A stretch of DNA of 22,274 bases from a virus: positions 1 to 22,274 of the IMG/VR virus record IMGVR_UViG_3300012920_000310. The stretch is one strand, 5' to 3'. The position numbers and the translations under genes were made by a program. Below the pieces are notes generated by a model, which was not told the origin of the DNA, ran no database searches, and was given only the letters and a program-made list of their open reading frames with translations. Positions 3,436-22,274 of the stretch are shown in pieces. How positions within the stretch are numbered: position 1 is the first letter of the stretch; each line of letters opens with the position of its first letter.

Positions 3436-3453
3436 ATTCATACATAGGTATAT

Positions 3454-3489
3454 AAAAAAGCCCGGACTATAACAGCTCCGGGCTTTTTT
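3454..3489 (+). terminator. rho-independent terminator after tail sheath
   Basis: The left arm AAAAAAGCCCGGA (3454-3466) pairs perfectly with TCCGGGCTTTTTT (3477-3489) around a 10-nt loop. The GC-rich core followed by six T is a textbook intrinsic terminator, 18 nt after the sheath stop codon. The A-rich left flank makes it symmetric, so it could also work on the other strand, where no gene ends nearby. Confidence 0.92.
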
Positions 3490-3492
3490 AAT

Positions 3493-5488: not shown

Positions 5489-8404
5489 ATGCCACCAACC
5501 AACAAAAGAAATAGAAACCTTAGACAAAAGGAAATAGAAGCTAAAAAGGCTGAACAGGCCGCTAGGCGATCACAGAAAGCTGCTGAAGACGCAAAGAAAC
5601 TTGCAGACGCTTTTGGTGAAGCAAATAGTAAAGCCGCTGCTGAAGCTAAAAAAGCTTTTGAAGCCGCAGAAGCTGCCGCTAAAAAACAAAGGGCTGCTTA
5701 TGACCAGGCTATAAAGCAATCCGAAGAATTAAGAAAACAAGTCTATAAGATAGGTGTCGAAGCTAATGAAGCTGCCAAAGAAAATGAAAAAATGGGTGGT
5801 GCATTTGGTAAAATGGGTAAAGATGCTAAAACAATGTGGGCTTCTGTTCAAGAAGCCGCCGAAAGGTATTACAAATCAGGACAAGATAGTCAAGCACAAA
5901 CATTACTTGCGATAGCAGAAACAAATAAAGAAGTTATGAAAATGGATTCTAATCGAGCTAGAGGTATAGAAATATCTGCAGAAGAAATAATGATGCTCGA
6001 AACACAGTTAGTTTCAAAAGCTCAAATACTTCAATTAGATGAAGCAGATCAAGAAATTGCTTTAAAGACCAATGACGTTATAAAAGAAAAACTTCGATTA
6101 ATGCAGAGAGAAAAAAGAATAGCTGATGAAATAAATGAAGAAAGAGAAAAAGGTCTAGGTATTATTGATGACATGATCGTGGGAGCTCGAAAATTATTGG
6201 GTGTACAGGGTCTATTGATTGCTGCCGTTACAGTATTAACAAACACGTTGAAAAAAGGTGTTGAAAATACAAAAGCTATTAATACTCAATTGGGTATAGG
6301 TGTTGGTCAATCTGCAAAGATAACTGCAAATCTAGCAATGGCTGCTCCATTAGCTGCAGCAGCAGGTTTCAGTGGAGAAATGTCAGATGCGGCCGCAAAT
6401 GCTGCATTAATATCTGGTAATTTAGATCTTGCAAAAAATGCAGCAATCGCTACAAGTGATGCGGCAATTGCATTTCAAACTGGAATGGACGCAACACAAG
6501 TTGCACAATTAGCAGAAAATCTAACAATTACCACAAATTTATCTAGAGAAGGTGCATCAGCAATGTTAGGATCTGTTGCATCTCTAGCACAAATGAATAA
6601 AGTTGCACCTAAAAAAGTATTAGAAGATTTAGCTAGCAATGCAGAATCAATGGCTAAGTTTACGGATGGATCAGCAGAAAGTTTAGCTAAAGCTGCAGTA
6701 CAAGCCGCAAGACTTGGAATTGAACTTTCTAAATCAGCTGCAATAGGTGAAAAATTATTAGATCTTGAATCTTCAATTGAAGCAGAAATGGAAGCATCTG
6801 TTTTGATTGGAAAAGAATTGAATTATGATAGGGCTAGACAACTTGCATTAAATAACGATATTGAAGGAGCTGTAAATGAAGTTGTTAAACAATTAGGTTC
6901 TGAAGCAGAATTCAATAAAATGAATGCAATACAGCGTCAAGCTTTAGCAGATTCAATTGGAGTTGGCGTAGAAGATTTAGCAAGTATGGTTTCTAAAAGA
7001 GGTAAAGCCGATCTAGAAGAAGATAATGTTCCTCAAAAACAATTAAAGACTCAAATGGATCTTGTCAAACAAGGTTATATTATGAGTGGTAAAGCAGAAG
7101 AACATTTAGATCTACTATCGCAAATATTAACTGCAATCATAGCATTAGGCATAGGTGGAAAACTAACAAAAGGTATTGGAAGAGCATTTGGTAATATGTT
7201 TGGTAAAATGAGAGCGGGTGCTAGACTTGGTGGTATGGGAAAAATGGGTAGAGGCGGTAGAATTGGAGGTGCTTTAAAAGGTGCAGCAAGATCAGGATTA
7301 GGTAAAGCTATCGGAATAGCAGGAGTTGCAATAGAAGGATTTAAAGCTTTTGGAAATCTTAAAAAAGGTTTCTTTGATAAAAATGTTCCAACTGAAGAAC
7401 GTAATACTGCTAGAGGTGCAGGCGTTGGTGGTGCAGCAGGTATGGCAATCGGTGCTGTATTCGGTGGACCTATCGGCGCAGCAATTGGAGGATTCTTAGG
7501 TAGAAAAATGGGTGGATACATTGGAAAGAATTGGGGTAAAATACAAAAAGGATTTTCAAAGTTAACGTCAGCTGGAAAAGAACTTGGTGGTAAATTATTT
7601 GAATTAGGTAAAGATGGATTTGATGCTGCAAAAGAAAAAGTAGCTGCATTTGCACCTAAAGTAATGGACTTTGGTAAAAAGATCTTTATGGTTGCTACAC
7701 CAATAGGAATAGCAACTTCAGCATTTAAAAAGTTTAAAGAAAAGCTACCTGCAATAAAAGAAGGTTTAGGCGCAGCAAAAGATAAATTTATCTCAGCATC
7801 AAAACAAATTGGTGAAAAAATAGGTGCTGGTTTAGAAGTTGCAAAAGAAAAAGTAGAAGTATTTCGTAATAATATAAAAGATAAATTTGGTAGCGCAATT
7901 AATACGGCTAAAGAAAAAATGGCCGCATTAGGTGCCGCAGCAAAAGAAAAATTTCAAAGTATAAAAACAAAAGTTAGTGAAGTTGCATCAGCATTACCTG
8001 GTAAAATATCTGCAGCATTAAGTAAAGCTGGCGAATTACATAAAAGATTTGTTGAGAGTGGTGGATTATTAGGAAAAGCAAAAGGTGCATTTAACTTTGT
8101 AAAAGAATTAGTTGTTGGAAAAAGTGTTGAAGGCGCAAAAGCTGATGGAGGTGGAATCCACAAATCGGGTACTTATCTTGTAGGTGAAGAAGGACCTGAA
8201 TTAGTTAATTTATCAAGAGGATCTCAAGTTGTACCAAATGATAAATTACAAGGAGCTTTAGCTGAAGGTCAATTCGGTGAAGTTAACATGGAACCTTTAG
8301 TAAATGCTATTATGGAATTAAAAACTGAATTACAACAAATCAAGACTCATACAAAATCAACTGCTAGAGGCGTTGATGGAATTAAAGTAGGAAGTGCAAC
8401 ATAA
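5489..8404 (+). CDS. tail tape measure protein
   Basis: This 971-residue protein has the architecture of a tape measure. Residues about 5-120 form an Ala/Lys/Glu-rich coiled coil. Hydrophobic segments lie at about 237-252 and 541-557, and a Gly/Ala-rich membrane-like stretch at about 644-680. Alternating Lys/Ala helices follow to about 860. The C-terminal GGGIHKSGTYLVGEEGPELV (about 887-906), followed by SRGSQVVPN, is the 'G-E-x-G-P-E' ending common to many phage tape measures. The length of such proteins sets tail length, and 971 residues implies a tail of roughly 140 nm by the usual 1.5 Å per residue rule. The protein is chaperoned during tube assembly and enters the cell envelope with the DNA. 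No clear ribosome site precedes the ATG, so translation may be coupled to the gene 12 nt upstream. The stop overlaps the next ATG by one base. It is not closely similar to T4 gp29 by eye. Confidence 0.88.
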   Translation: MPPTNKRNRNLRQKEIEAKKAEQAARRSQKAAEDAKKLADAFGEANSKAAAEAKKAFEAAEAAAKKQRAAYDQAIKQSEELRKQVYKIGVEANEAAKENEKMGGAFGKMGKDAKTMWASVQEAAERYYKSGQDSQAQTLLAIAETNKEVMKMDSNRARGIEISAEEIMMLETQLVSKAQILQLDEADQEIALKTNDVIKEKLRLMQREKRIADEINEEREKGLGIIDDMIVGARKLLGVQGLLIAAVTVLTNTLKKGVENTKAINTQLGIGVGQSAKITANLAMAAPLAAAAGFSGEMSDAAANAALISGNLDLAKNAAIATSDAAIAFQTGMDATQVAQLAENLTITTNLSREGASAMLGSVASLAQMNKVAPKKVLEDLASNAESMAKFTDGSAESLAKAAVQAARLGIELSKSAAIGEKLLDLESSIEAEMEASVLIGKELNYDRARQLALNNDIEGAVNEVVKQLGSEAEFNKMNAIQRQALADSIGVGVEDLASMVSKRGKADLEEDNVPQKQLKTQMDLVKQGYIMSGKAEEHLDLLSQILTAIIALGIGGKLTKGIGRAFGNMFGKMRAGARLGGMGKMGRGGRIGGALKGAARSGLGKAIGIAGVAIEGFKAFGNLKKGFFDKNVPTEERNTARGAGVGGAAGMAIGAVFGGPIGAAIGGFLGRKMGGYIGKNWGKIQKGFSKLTSAGKELGGKLFELGKDGFDAAKEKVAAFAPKVMDFGKKIFMVATPIGIATSAFKKFKEKLPAIKEGLGAAKDKFISASKQIGEKIGAGLEVAKEKVEVFRNNIKDKFGSAINTAKEKMAALGAAAKEKFQSIKTKVSEVASALPGKISAALSKAGELHKRFVESGGLLGKAKGAFNFVKELVVGKSVEGAKADGGGIHKSGTYLVGEEGPELVNLSRGSQVVPNDKLQGALAEGQFGEVNMEPLVNAIMELKTELQQIKTHTKSTARGVDGIKVGSAT

Positions 8405-14776: not shown

Positions 14777-15468
14777 TGGCAATAGAACGAACAGAAGGAC
14801 CTTTTTTAACACAGAAGCATGAATTTTTATATGTTGACAGTGATATTTGGGTTTTGCCAGGTATACCATATAAGGTAAATTATATGACAGGTAAAACAAT
14901 AGTATATAAAATTGAAAAGACTGATGAATTAATTACTGCTACAAGAAAAAAACCTTTAGAGATATATCAAAAGCTAACTGGTAAACTAAGAGATACATAT
15001 CCAAAGAAAATTTATCCTACTATAAAAAATTTACCGTTTGAACAAAAGTTTATATCAAGAGTTTTTACACAAAATAAACTTATTGAAGATGCCGAAATAT
15101 ACGAAACAACAGCTCAGACCAATACAGTTAGCTATAGTTTTGTTACTATACAATGGCAAATTTCTGGTCCTGAAGCCCAAGCAAAAATACATAATGAACA
15201 AGTTTTACAGGTTGCTGAAAGAAGTTTGCCTGGAATTTCAGAAGTTTTACCTCCATTACAACTACATCAATCAAAAATAGTAAGAGAATTAGATCCTGCT
15301 CAACTTATACGAAAAAATCCAATGTATAACAATTTAGCATCGTCTGATGTACTAGATAACTTGACTTCACCACCGATTGAAAAGAAAGTAAAAACTATTA
15401 AAAAGAAGAGAAAGAAAAGACGAAAGAAAAAGGGAGCCAAAAAGACTCCCTCAATCTTACTTAAATAA
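14776..15468 (+). CDS. tail-operon protein with Lys/Arg-rich C-terminus
   Basis: This 230-residue protein has no recognised family. It overlaps the hub gene stop by one base and closes the tail operon, so a virion or assembly role is likely. Residues 1-170 look like a mixed alpha/beta domain (for example FLYVDSDIWVLPGIPYKVNY). Residues about 203-225 are strikingly basic (KKVKTIKKKRKKRRKKKGAK), which suggests binding to nucleic acid, membrane or an acidic protein surface. The DNA encoding this basic tail doubles as the terminator of the convergent minus-strand gene, whose 3' end overlaps by 12 bp. The poly-A coding stretch could also have been shaped by that terminator. Confidence 0.72.
   Translation: MAIERTEGPFLTQKHEFLYVDSDIWVLPGIPYKVNYMTGKTIVYKIEKTDELITATRKKPLEIYQKLTGKLRDTYPKKIYPTIKNLPFEQKFISRVFTQNKLIEDAEIYETTAQTNTVSYSFVTIQWQISGPEAQAKIHNEQVLQVAERSLPGISEVLPPLQLHQSKIVRELDPAQLIRKNPMYNNLASSDVLDNLTSPPIEKKVKTIKKKRKKRRKKKGAKKTPSILLK
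15426..15451 (-). terminator. intrinsic terminator of the minus-strand TonB-like gene
   Basis: Read on the minus strand, AGGGAG (complement of 15446-15451) and CTCCCT (complement of 15431-15436) form a 6-bp stem with a 9-nt loop. A T-rich run follows (complement of 15426-15430). On the plus strand no T-tract follows the stem, so the polarity fits the minus gene, which ends 6 bp away. It lies wholly inside the 3' coding part of the plus-strand gene. Confidence 0.8.
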
Positions 15469-15786
15469 AATAGGTAAGTTATACCTAATTTGGACTGGAC
15501 GTCCGTTTTGCAACGCAGGTTCAAATTCTATTGCCATAACTTTATCTATGATAGTTTGAGACCAATCATGATTGAAGGTGTCAACTATTTCTGGATTGAC
15601 AACATTTCCTTCTTCGTTTACTTCGAATTGTACTACAATTTGTCCTTCTTGATCTAATCCGGTATGTGGTAATTCGTAATACGAAATATGAAATGGAACT
15701 TTTATTTCTGGTTGCCGGCTCTTACCAGAAGGTAAGTTTTGGGCGGCCAACACGCCCACTAGTAATAAACACGCTAGGGTCCTCAT
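15457..15786 (-). CDS. secreted TonB C-terminal-domain protein
   Basis: This 109-residue protein is the only minus-strand gene in the window. Residues 1-16 (MRTLACLLLVGVLAAQ) look like a short signal peptide with a probable signal peptidase I site near LAA. The Cys at position 6 is too early for a lipobox. Residues about 42-108 form a TonB C-terminal domain: GQIVVQFEVNEEGNVVNPEI, then MAIEFEPALQNGRPVQIRYN and LPILFK. This matches the family pattern 'V-x-F-x-V-x-x-x-G-x-V' then 'F-x-P-A-x-x-x-G-x-P-V'. It lacks the membrane anchor and Pro-rich linker of true TonB, so it cannot transduce energy itself. It may bind the TonB box of outer membrane receptors in the periplasm. AAGGAG lies 7 nt before the ATG. 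Its strand, secretion signal and own terminator suggest an acquired, separately transcribed gene. Confidence 0.85.
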   Translation of the reverse strand: MRTLACLLLVGVLAAQNLPSGKSRQPEIKVPFHISYYELPHTGLDQEGQIVVQFEVNEEGNVVNPEIVDTFNHDWSQTIIDKVMAIEFEPALQNGRPVQIRYNLPILFK

Positions 15787-19571: not shown

Positions 19572-19715
19572 ATGATTAAACATTTAGTTGAAAATAAAAT
19601 GTCTTATTGGGAGCATTGGTTTAGAGCTATGAAAATTAGTGGAGCATTATTTGTCCACGCATGGTTACCAGATGTATTAACAGATTATGCTAGTAAAGAA
19701 ATATGTGATGATTAA
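19572..19715 (+). CDS. DUF6356-like small protein
   Basis: This 47-residue ORF is easy to miss because it is short. It starts 2 nt after the preceding stop, with GAGG (19558-19561) 10 nt upstream. The core KMSYWEHWFRAMKISGALFV, followed by HAWLPDVLTDYAS, matches the small DUF6356-type proteins of marine T4-like phages: a Y-x-x-H start, then a hydrophobic stretch, then H-A-x-x-P and a final Ala-Ser. The hydrophobic stretch (about residues 22-34) may associate with the membrane. Function is unknown. It overlaps the Nudix gene start by 8 nt, which suggests coupled translation. Confidence 0.7.
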   Translation: MIKHLVENKMSYWEHWFRAMKISGALFVHAWLPDVLTDYASKEICDD

Positions 19716-20112
19716 ATTGAAAGAATTAATATTAGAAGAAAAAGCCTGTGATACTGCAGGAATAATTTTAAGACATCCTATAATGGGTGTTGTACTTGTA
19801 AAAGATATGAAAGACTCATACGACTGGGGTATTCCAAAGGGTAAAGTGGAGCCAGGTGAAGAACCAATCGATGCAGCTTGCAGAGAGACTATTGAAGAAG
19901 TCTCTATTCTTATAAAAAAAGAGGGATGTAATATAAACAGCCCTGTTAAATTAAAAGCCACTAAGAAAAACTCTAGAGAGGCAAATTATTATATCTACGA
20001 AAGTAATATGAAAATGGCAGTTATGCCAACTAAAAGTTTAGAGCACGAAGAAGTGCGCTGGTTTGATAAATTACCAGAAAACACAGATCCACGATTAAAG
20101 GATTTAATATAA
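19708..20112 (+). CDS. Nudix hydrolase
   Basis: This 134-residue protein carries a Nudix box, G45 to I67: G-(x5)-E51-(x7)-R59-E60-T-I-E63-E64-V-S-I. The core R-E-x-x-E-E that binds divalent metal is intact; the usual late Gly is Ser66. Nudix enzymes hydrolyse nucleoside diphosphates linked to another group, such as oxidised dNTPs, ADP-ribose or capped RNA; the substrate cannot be told from the sequence. WGIPKGKVEPGEEP just before and within the box is typical of MutT-like members. I chose the ATG at 19708; in-frame alternatives are GTG 19705 and ATG 19687, none with a strong ribosome site, so translation is probably coupled to the overlapping 47-residue gene. The stop overlaps the next ATG by one base. 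Confidence 0.88.
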   Translation: MIKLKELILEEKACDTAGIILRHPIMGVVLVKDMKDSYDWGIPKGKVEPGEEPIDAACRETIEEVSILIKKEGCNINSPVKLKATKKNSREANYYIYESNMKMAVMPTKSLEHEEVRWFDKLPENTDPRLKDLI

Positions 20113-20501
20113 TGAAAACACAATTATTATGTACTTTTTGTTCAAAGTATGATTTTGATGATTCAATAGAATTAATTAAATTAGGTGCAAATATTGTCTT
20201 TAATAAAATATATGCATTCGAAAACTTAGAAAATGATAACCAATTAATCTGTACTTATAATGTAGAAAAATTAGATGACTTTGTACAGAACAGTAAAACA
20301 ATGGCTATTCATCGTAAAAAAGAAACTAATACCTTATATACTATAAACGCTTTAAATGAAGCAATAAGGGAAGACAACAATGGTATTTTAGACAAGTCTT
20401 TCTCATTAGACTGGTCAAAATATCAAAACAGTTTACTTTTAACAAACGATTCAGGTCTTAATATTATTAAAACAAAGCTTTATAAAATTATTAATGTTTA
20501 G
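20112..20501 (+). CDS. conserved T4-like phage protein, unknown function
   Basis: This 129-residue protein begins on the overlapping TAATG after the Nudix gene. The N-terminus, MKTQLLCTFCSKYDFDDSIE, is followed by ICTYNVEK. The most distinctive part is MAIHRKKETNTLYTINALNE with the downstream GILDKSFSLDWSKYQNSLLL and KTKLYKIINV. This pattern seems familiar to me from marine T4-like genomes, where the product is annotated without function. It has no signal peptide and no membrane segment. Its stop codon overlaps the AGGAGG ribosome site of the next gene, so translation of the two is probably linked. Confidence 0.75.
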   Translation: MKTQLLCTFCSKYDFDDSIELIKLGANIVFNKIYAFENLENDNQLICTYNVEKLDDFVQNSKTMAIHRKKETNTLYTINALNEAIREDNNGILDKSFSLDWSKYQNSLLLTNDSGLNIIKTKLYKIINV

Positions 20502-20505
20502 GAGG
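20500..20505 (+). promoter_or_regulatory. strong ribosome site fixing the selenoprotein start
   Basis: AGGAGG lies 5 nt before GTG 20511. The ATG at 20509, one base out of frame with respect to that GTG, opens a frame that stops after 5 codons. The GTG frame is therefore the productive one. The ribosome site overlaps the upstream TAG stop (20499-20501). Confidence 0.75.
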
Positions 20506-20510
20506 CACAT

Positions 20511-20747
20511 GTGGAAATATCTATAGAATATTGCATGCAATGAAACTACGAGCCTAAAGCCTTCAGTTTGAGGGAAGAACTCGCTAGTAGATATCCAACT
20601 GATATAGACGACTTCAATATGATTCAATCTGGCGGTGGAGTATTTGAAGTTAAACAACACAATAATGATGGAACCGAAATATTACTTTTTAGTAAAAAAG
20701 AACTTAAAAGGTTTCCTCATGAAAACGAAATAAAAATTAACAAATAA
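20511..20747 (+). CDS. SelW/Rdx-family selenoprotein-like gene with in-frame TGA
   Basis: Reading through one TGA (20541-20543) gives a 78-residue protein: M-E-I-S-I-E-Y-C8-M-Q-U11-N-Y-E-P, then KAFSLREELASRYPTDIDDF, then SGGGVFEV (40-47) and SKKELKRFPHENEIKINK. This is the complete SelW/SelT/SelH-type Rdx thioredoxin-like fold: a C-x-x-U (or C-x-x-C) redox motif after the first strand, a following helix, 'G-G-V-F-E-V', and 'S-K-K-x-x-x-R-F-P' near the end. The TGA sits exactly at the second redox Cys position, as in true selenoproteins. A SECIS-like hairpin follows it. TGA is not recoded elsewhere, since the 729-residue gene ends in TGA. Expression as a full protein needs host SelA/SelB/SelC/SelD. 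Family members are small cytosolic thiol or selenol redox proteins. The gene lies between a phage protein and gp32. If Sec is not inserted, only a 10-residue peptide is made. Confidence 0.85.
20549..20583 (+). promoter_or_regulatory. SECIS-like hairpin directing selenocysteine at the TGA
   Basis: A lower stem CGAG (20549-20552) pairs with CTCG (20580-20583). An upper stem pairs CCU (20560-20562) with AGG (20571-20573), leaves U20563 bulged, then pairs CA (20564-20565) with UG (20569-20570) around loop GUU (20566-20568). The apical loop begins 22 nt after the TGA, within the 16-37 nt expected for bacterial SECIS, and has G first. The bulged U two pairs below a loop containing G-U mirrors the E. 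coli fdhF SECIS recognised by SelB. An alternative pairing without the bulge (six pairs, 20560-20565 with 20569-20574) is also possible. Confidence 0.7.
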
Positions 20748-20822: not shown

Positions 20823-21578
20823 ATGGACATAAAAGCCATCAAAGCGCGTCTTAACCAGTTACAACAAGTTAATACACGTACCTCTTCACTTTGGAAACCC
20901 TCACCTGGAAAAAGTCAGGTTCGTATTGTGCCTTATAAGCATAATCCTGATTCTCCATTTATAGAATTGTACTTCCATTATGATATCGGTGAAAAATCTT
21001 ATTTGTCACCGCAGTCATTTGGACGTCCTGATCCAATTGAAGAGTTTGCTGTAAAACTAAAAACATCTGGAAACAAAGACGACTACAAATTAGGTAGAAA
21101 AATCGAAGCCAAAATGCGTACATTCGCACCCGTTATTGTGCGCGGCGAAGAGAGTGAAGGTGTAAAGTTCTGGGGATTCGGAAAAACAGTTTATCAAGAA
21201 CTTCTTTCAATAATCGCAGATCCAGATTACGGTGATATTACTGATCCTGTAAGTGGAAGAGATATTGTGGTTGAGTTTAAAACTAAAGAAGAAACTGGTA
21301 AGTCATTTCCTATGACAGCTGTTCGTGCTAAACCTAATCAAACACCAGTCACAGAAGAACCTGAGGTTATGAAAACAATAAAAGATACTCAAAAACAAAT
21401 CACTGAGATTTATCAAGAACAATCTTATGATGATTTGAAAGAGGTACTTAATAACTTTCTAAATCAAGAATCTGATGTTTCAGATAGTGATATGAATATG
21501 ACTGCAGTAAAAACACCTGCAAAAGCTGAGAAAGTTGAAGACGTATCATCCGCATTTGACGATCTTTTTAATAACTAA
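20823..21578 (+). CDS. 32: single-stranded DNA-binding protein (gp32)
   Basis: This 251-residue protein is a T4 gp32 homologue (T4: 301). The N-terminal basic helix MDIKAIKARLNQLQQVN is the self-association region. LWKPSPGKSQVRIVPY begins the OB-fold core, with aromatic and basic residues that contact ssDNA (for example IELYFHYDIGEKSYLSPQSF and FWGFGKTVYQELL). The C-terminus is acidic and ends DVSSAFDDLFNN, the tail that binds partner replication and recombination proteins. There is no Cys anywhere, so the zinc site of T4 gp32 is absent; the segment YLSPQSFGRPDPIEEFA seems to replace it. The protein coats ssDNA during replication and recombination and works with UvsX, encoded next. Confidence 0.92.
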   Translation: MDIKAIKARLNQLQQVNTRTSSLWKPSPGKSQVRIVPYKHNPDSPFIELYFHYDIGEKSYLSPQSFGRPDPIEEFAVKLKTSGNKDDYKLGRKIEAKMRTFAPVIVRGEESEGVKFWGFGKTVYQELLSIIADPDYGDITDPVSGRDIVVEFKTKEETGKSFPMTAVRAKPNQTPVTEEPEVMKTIKDTQKQITEIYQEQSYDDLKEVLNNFLNQESDVSDSDMNMTAVKTPAKAEKVEDVSSAFDDLFNN

Positions 21579-21633: not shown

Positions 21634-22274
21634 ATGGCAAAAAAGAATAAGGATTCATTGGCTCTGGATTTAGCAGATTCACTGAATAGTAAATTTAAAG
21701 GTCAAAAAGTTGCATATTTTTTAGATGGAAAGCATTCAACACCAACTGATGTAACAGATTTTATATCAACAGGTTCATCTATGCTTGATTTAGCAATATC
21801 AAATCAAAAAGATGGTGGAATTGCTGTTGGAAGAATAACAGAAATAAATGGATTATCTTCTACCGGTAAATCTTTACTTGGAGCTCATATACTTGCAGAA
21901 ACTCAAAAGCAAGGTGGTGTTGCTGTTTATATTGATACAGAAACTGCTGTTAGTAGACAATTTTTAGAAGCTATTGGTTGTGACGTTCCTAATCTTCTTT
22001 ATCTTCATATAGAAACTGTTGAGCAAATTTTTCAATCAATTGAAGATATTGTATTAAAAGTTAGAGAATCTGATAAAGATAAAATGGTAACTATACTCGT
22101 TGATAGTCTTGCTGCCGCTTCAACTGAAGTTGAAATGGAATCAGATTATGGTAAAGATGGTTGGGCTACAACTAAAGCTCTTATTATTTCAAAAGCCATG
22201 AGAAAATTAACGCAAATGATCGGCCGACATAAAATCACTCTTGTATTTACCAATCAGCTAAGACAAAAATTAGG
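21634..22274 (+). CDS. uvsX: UvsX/RecA-like recombinase (5' part, cut by window end)
   Basis: The first 213 codons are present and the frame is still open at the window edge. Walker A is G73-LSST-GKS80, a canonical G-x4-G-K-S unlike the altered P-loop of T4 UvsX. YIDTE (99-103) contains the probable catalytic Glu, Walker B is TILVDSL (143-149), and FTNQLRQKLG (205-214) matches the RecA 'N-Q-x-R-x-K-x-G' segment before loop L2. ISTGSSMLDLAIS and GGIAVGRITEI are typical RecA-family core starts. The enzyme polymerises on ssDNA and drives strand exchange in recombination-dependent replication and repair. AGGGG precedes the ATG. It follows gp32, its functional partner. Confidence 0.93.
   Translation, partial: MAKKNKDSLALDLADSLNSKFKGQKVAYFLDGKHSTPTDVTDFISTGSSMLDLAISNQKDGGIAVGRITEINGLSSTGKSLLGAHILAETQKQGGVAVYIDTETAVSRQFLEAIGCDVPNLLYLHIETVEQIFQSIEDIVLKVRESDKDKMVTILVDSLAAASTEVEMESDYGKDGWATTKALIISKAMRKLTQMIGRHKITLVFTNQLRQKL

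Follow-up and report, generated by a model that had tools for sequence, protein, structure and literature searches.

The window, i.e., the entire 22,274-base stretch of DNA analyzed, contains at positions 20511–20747 (plus strand) what appears to be an intact phage selenoprotein gene, in which the in-frame UGA at 20541–20543 would be read as selenocysteine (Sec) by the host's Sec machinery via a SECIS element at 20560–20574, yielding an oxidoreductase of the SelW/Rdx family. The probability of this interpretation is estimated at approximately 93%. It combines the family assignment, a TGA at the Sec site, selection acting beyond this TGA, a conserved and covarying hairpin as well as ordinary TGA stops elsewhere, all deduced from sequence data. 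According to the proposed mechanism, host SelA, SelB, SelC and SelD would decode the UGA as Sec during infection, the SECIS hairpin would guide Sec insertion, and the resulting 78-residue C-x-x-U oxidoreductase would reduce thiols or selenols in the course of infection.

Gene product and genomic context

The gene starts with GTG (20511–20513), located five bases downstream of the Shine-Dalgarno motif AGGAGG (20500–20505, +), in agreement with the original prediction. Likewise as predicted, the TGA represents residue 11 within YCMQ-U-NY and is followed by 67 codons leading to the stop codon TAA (20745–20747). Membership of the product in the SelW/Rdx family, which had been claimed from motif features, was corroborated by profile searches with C in place of U, yielding 66.4 bits for PF10262 Rdx (E-value 2.7e-18, residues 2–75, cut-off 22.6) and 52.3 bits for TIGR02174 CXXU_selWTH (cut-off 34.2). 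The redox motif C8-M-Q-U11 is situated in the N-terminal loop following strand 2–8. The AlphaFold model of the protein reached a pLDDT of 94.4, and all 21 of its PDB matches with E-values ≤0.001 are SelW-like (TM 0.72–0.78); the same SelW-like crystal structures were retrieved by sequence using a profile built from seven phage versions. A SelW-like family was not found in PHROGs, nor was a close fold found in the viral structure library. The product is predicted to be a thioredoxin-fold oxidoreductase of the SelW/Rdx family featuring a C-x-x-U redox pair.

The window originates from a T4-like myophage encoding a tail sheath protein (phrog_23), a T4 baseplate protein, a DNA polymerase A-like protein, a NUDIX hydrolase, gp32 and UvsX/RecA. 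The NUDIX hydrolase gene (19687–20112, +; PF00293) is an upstream neighbor of the SelW gene, and a 129-residue ORF (20112–20501, +), a conserved neighbor that served to locate related phages, lies immediately upstream. Downstream, genes for a gp32-like ssDNA-binding protein (20823–21578, +; PF08804, phrog_1192) and a UvsX/RecA-like recombinase extending past the window end (21634–22274, +; PF00154) are present. The location next to replication genes noted in the original prediction holds for the window, but not for some other phages, in which SelW lies away from gp32/uvsX. Elsewhere in the window, a putative 2OG-Fe(II) oxygenase (PF13759) is encoded at 20–661, ahead of the tail genes, and a GC-rich hairpin between A and T runs (AAAAAAGCCCGG...CCGGGCTTTTTT) at 3451–3492 probably represents a two-way terminator; this hairpin accounts for weak Thr_leader matches in the window.

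In IMG/VR, 18 distinct phage versions of SelW were identified on 28 contigs (window included) from many metagenomes, with identities among them falling to approximately 40% in some cases. These relatives were retrieved via neighboring genes and then via profiles; with the window protein as sole query, no relatives were found in IMG/VR or among 50,697 cultured-phage records, and the SelW protein of one relative yielded noise only when used as query. The closest relative is a 132-kb contig sharing 84% (sheath) and 94% (gp32) identity, in which SelW is kept at 69% protein identity. Contigs with SelW but without the window's genes still encode baseplate wedge proteins of the T4 type in the cases tested (G086, G088, G090, G093). 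As the UGA and the hairpin are both retained on 27 related viral contigs, selenoproteins would be a trait that a phage group maintains, rather than one confined to cells.

SelW is an accessory gene, as an Rdx match was obtained for 1 of 80 records retrieved via gp32. The interval between the 129-residue ORF and gp32 varies from approximately 100 bases to more than 3 kb among related phages (e.g., L086, L098, L058) and looks like a cargo site with SelW as one of its occupants, and other phages carry SelW at different loci. Between SelW and gp32 of one contig (L015: 1774–1966), a manA RNA-like structure was noticed, scoring 52.0 bits for RF01745 (gathering score 55.2).

Probable read-through of the UGA and the SECIS hairpin

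The reading frame past the TGA was evaluated with hairpin codons excluded. dN/dS values were 0.07–0.12 within the close L239–L242 group and mostly 0.1–0.5 in wider pairs, for which dS is near saturation; the near-identical pair L237/L238 shows too few changes to be judged. Purifying selection acts on the codons following the TGA. The view that the TGA arose as a sequencing error, or as a nonsense mutation in a Cys-type SelW gene that is decaying, has only the base rate of errors and pseudogenes in its favor. It is extremely improbable given this selection, the covarying hairpin described below, and the same TGA in all 18 distinct versions, which come from many metagenomes (28 contigs) and in which neither varied stops nor frameshifts were observed. 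The original prediction had arrived at the same assessment.

Stop-codon recoding is known from phages, so that a recoded genetic code (code 4 type) was also considered, in which a suppressor tRNA would insert Trp or another standard amino acid at TGA. However, TGA is the stop codon used by 14 of 97, 29 of 105, 8 of 68 and 22 of 72 large ORFs when four large relatives are considered, and by 1 of 16 in the window; furthermore, the gene preceding SelW in L015 stops at a TGA approximately 30 nt ahead of the Sec TGA. Moreover, a tRNA with UCA anticodon was not found in the SelW phage contigs searched, and the in-frame TGA occurs only at the redox-active C-x-x-U/C site. This explanation is scarcely credible, and purifying selection, ordinary TGA stops and the missing UCA-anticodon tRNA together lead to the rejection of general recoding, decay and sequencing error.

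Another possibility is that the UGA mostly functions as a true stop and that Sec read-through acts as a switch, with a 10-residue leader or low read-through tying the SelW level to selenium or the Sec machinery. In general, Sec insertion has a low efficiency and depends on selenium, and the SelW gene is part of a compact operon ahead of gp32, which would fit such control. Nothing points to the 10-residue leader having a role of its own, however, and selection on the full frame argues that it is the complete protein that is maintained, which makes a switch of this kind very improbable compared with an intact gene translated through its UGA.

The predicted SECIS hairpin (20560–20574, +) consists of a six-pair stem with arms at 20560–20565 and 20569–20574 around the loop GUU (20566–20568), which becomes AGUUU in a five-pair reading. 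The stem begins 17 nt past the TGA, and, in agreement with the original prediction, the loop starts with G-U and lies 22 nt past the TGA. Six pairs are formed in 16 and five in two of the 18 phage versions. The SECIS element of E. coli fdhF features a bulged U17 and a GGUCU loop; the phage hairpin resembles it in its similar distance and its small G-U-containing loop, but lacks a conserved bulged U. The fdhF-like bulge initially proposed is compatible with the sequences of the window and a few CCUUCA relatives, whereas in most relatives (CUCUCA-GUU-UGAGAG) the position is paired, and this detail is not supported. Bacterial SelW stems typically read CCGCC/GGCGG around RGUYU; those of the phages are AU-richer, with CUCUC/GAGAG around AGUUU. 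No Rfam match was obtained at the hairpin.

When the peptide was recoded at random with synonymous codons, the full six-pair stem arose in 2.6–5% of cases. Within the set of phage sequences, 98% of cells are paired, and two pairs show changes on both sides. The covariation test comprised 61 sequences, including 45 bacterial SelW genes, and 500 shuffles: 93.7% of cells are paired compared to 74.6% after shuffling, and 86 double changes were counted compared to 28.8, with 0 of 500 shuffles reaching as high a value in either case. Slid versions of the hairpin alignment all scored far lower, and the RNAalifold consensus supports the hairpin. The hairpin exceeds chance expectation. Furthermore, stem pairing constrains codon choice and thereby explains rare codons within the hairpin, e.g., Leu CTC (13/14 versus 2.4% background), next to Ser AGT (17/17 versus 21.6%) and Leu TTG (17/18 versus 8.7%). 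Other conserved Leu/Ser columns mostly show the usual codon mixture, the exception being Ser column 23 just past the stem (TCA 10/10).

An exchange of U for C at position 11, suggested in the original prediction as a property to be sought in homologues, was encountered in bacteria (the Myxococcales form L208 and rhizobial forms) but not seen in phages. Using patterns with a Cys codon, no Cys-type SelW was found in viruses among IMG/VR contigs; several search patterns required a Cys codon at the Sec site, so that the search was biased towards Cys forms. As a point against the Sec reading, four Cys homologues from Rhizobiales and Azospirillum show that the fold can generally do without Sec. Four Cys homologues retain 2–4 of the six stem pairs; in L208, the full stem is still present, as after a recent Sec-to-Cys change. 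A Chloroflexi SelW gene (L225: 3001–3201) carries TGA at both redox positions (Y-U-Q-Q-U).

Sec decoding, candidate hosts and a second selenoprotein candidate

On the 23 phage contigs searched, neither selB nor a tRNA-Sec above cut-off was found, so that decoding would depend on the host. Sub-threshold tRNA-Sec matches on phage contigs turned out to be standard tRNAs for Cys, Tyr, Gly and Ala. Among bacteria, selB was detected above cut-off in all 15 tested genomes holding Sec-form SelW relatives and in five of five tested Fidelibacterota genomes with SelW. The original prediction had proposed examining candidate hosts for Sec machinery; for selB, this examination was positive in Fidelibacterota, the leading candidate group.

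Twelve large phage contigs were scanned for UGA read-through genes, and their SelW genes were recovered by this approach. Three SelW contigs (G083, G085, G088) also encode a thioredoxin/AhpC-like candidate selenoprotein with the active site TSWUPSC or TWUGPC, where the U of WUPSC or WUGPC corresponds to the TGA. The candidate is located at L289: 4358–5242 (G083), near 24100 (minus strand) in G085 and near 8319 (plus strand) in G088, and was also recorded for L339 and L340. The G083-type gene or a 60% relative, with the TGA kept, was found on two further IMG/VR contigs. In the G083 copy, a signal-peptide-like start is followed by thrombospondin-type-3 and dockerin parts. Searches of this copy against 199 Fidelibacterota (Marinimicrobia) genomes gave best matches of up to 255 bits at 49% identity, which have one TGA inside, the same as in the phage gene, versus 48.6 bits for the best match in 200 Pseudomonadota genomes. 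Based on these matches, Fidelibacterota are the foremost host candidates for these phages among the two phyla compared. Fidelibacterota/Marinimicrobia are probably the Sec-decoding host of at least some of the SelW phages.

In the SelW tree (69 columns), all phage proteins form one clade (98/86) beside Alphaproteobacteria (97/88) and not beside Fidelibacterota, which counts against the proposed explanation, although grouping the phages with Fidelibacterota was not rejected (p-AU 0.145). In the window, an ORF with a TonB C-terminal domain was observed at 15457–15786 (−), on the strand opposite to the surrounding phage genes. It scored 41.8 bits in Fidelibacterota versus 31 in Pseudomonadota, a difference too weak alone for a host call, and may be taken as the window phage's sole own hint of its host.

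Possible function and relation to known selenoproteins

For the SelW-like protein, a role as thiol/selenol oxidoreductase is most likely because of its fold and CxxU pair, as judged from the family. In a close relative, a B12-dependent ribonucleoside-triphosphate reductase (TIGR02505, 348.9 bits, above cut-off) is encoded downstream of gp32 and adjoined by a thymidylate synthase. Gene products noticed in related SelW phages comprise the B12-dependent ribonucleoside-triphosphate reductase as well as proteins resembling arginine deiminases/dimethylargininases and cobalamin-biosynthesis proteins (loci L274: 12868–14841, L274: 17485–18396 and L285: 11752–13773). B12-dependent ribonucleotide reductases require a dithiol reductant, from which the idea, not a result, arises that SelW feeds the phage's B12-dependent reductase; such a function is conceivable but unlikely. 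A role in general redox protection is no less possible, and the chances are about even that the same selenoprotein serves in peroxide/thiol defence, balancing the redox state of the infected cell, and not in nucleotide metabolism. Although SelW contigs near gp32 also encode the dithiol-requiring reductase, the B12-dependent reductase is present in 5 of 12 larger contigs and out of step with SelW, which favors defence, as does the occurrence of a second TGA-containing, thioredoxin-like protein with a signal peptide. Moreover, the literature characterizes SelW-like proteins as glutathione-interacting redox proteins whose function is unclear (PMC1088965). A broader scenario, in which T4-like Marinimicrobia phages would possess a selenoproteome of their own (SelW and a secreted thioredoxin-like protein) relying on host Sec decoding, selenium supply together with this decoding would limit host range and infection yield, and the SelW selenol would reduce the B12-dependent reductase, is tentative and rather doubtful.

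Among viruses, poxvirus glutathione peroxidases are also virus-encoded redox selenoproteins decoded by the host; they differ from the phage SelW in belonging to a eukaryotic virus, a eukaryotic SECIS type and an unrelated protein family. For huge wastewater phages, tRNA-Sec was predicted, which likewise suggests phage involvement in Sec decoding; in the passages considered, Sec proteins are deduced there solely from predicted tRNAs, selenoprotein genes not being reported (PMC10747093), whereas here selenoprotein genes are present and a tRNA-Sec above cut-off was not found. The SelW family is the most abundant marine selenoprotein family, and it is known from marine bacteria together with this kind of SECIS (PMC1088965, PMC2398784). 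Phage SelW shares with the bacterial SelW selenoproteins (Rdx, PF10262; TIGR02174) the fold, the C-x-x-U motif, the TGA position as well as the place and loop type of the hairpin, but differs in being phage-encoded, in forming its own clade (98/86) and in that Sec machinery was not found on the phage contigs.

In a marine survey of 2021, few or no viral sequences were reported for most selenoprotein families examined (PMC9402790), and two reviews of prokaryotic selenoproteomes leave phages unmentioned. In the open-access literature, with subscription papers and preprints largely outside the scope, no description of a phage selenoprotein was found. The use of SelW with a conserved SECIS as phage cargo appears to be new, the protein family itself being known. 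Selenoproteins have so far been regarded as a cellular trait; conserved phage selenoprotein genes would imply that viruses draw on costly decoding machinery that they seemingly do not encode. It is predicted that such phages are restricted to Sec-decoding hosts, that viruses have a share in marine selenium demand, and that some metagenomic SelW genes hitherto counted as bacterial are of viral origin. Further phage selenoproteins are probably hidden, since gene callers truncate such genes at the UGA. Among cellular replicons, SelW genes with an in-frame TGA missed by the records were noticed on plasmids of Thermomicrobium roseum (L327) and Cytobacillus spongiae (L328); one of the two is annotated solely from behind the TGA, and the other is absent from the table used.
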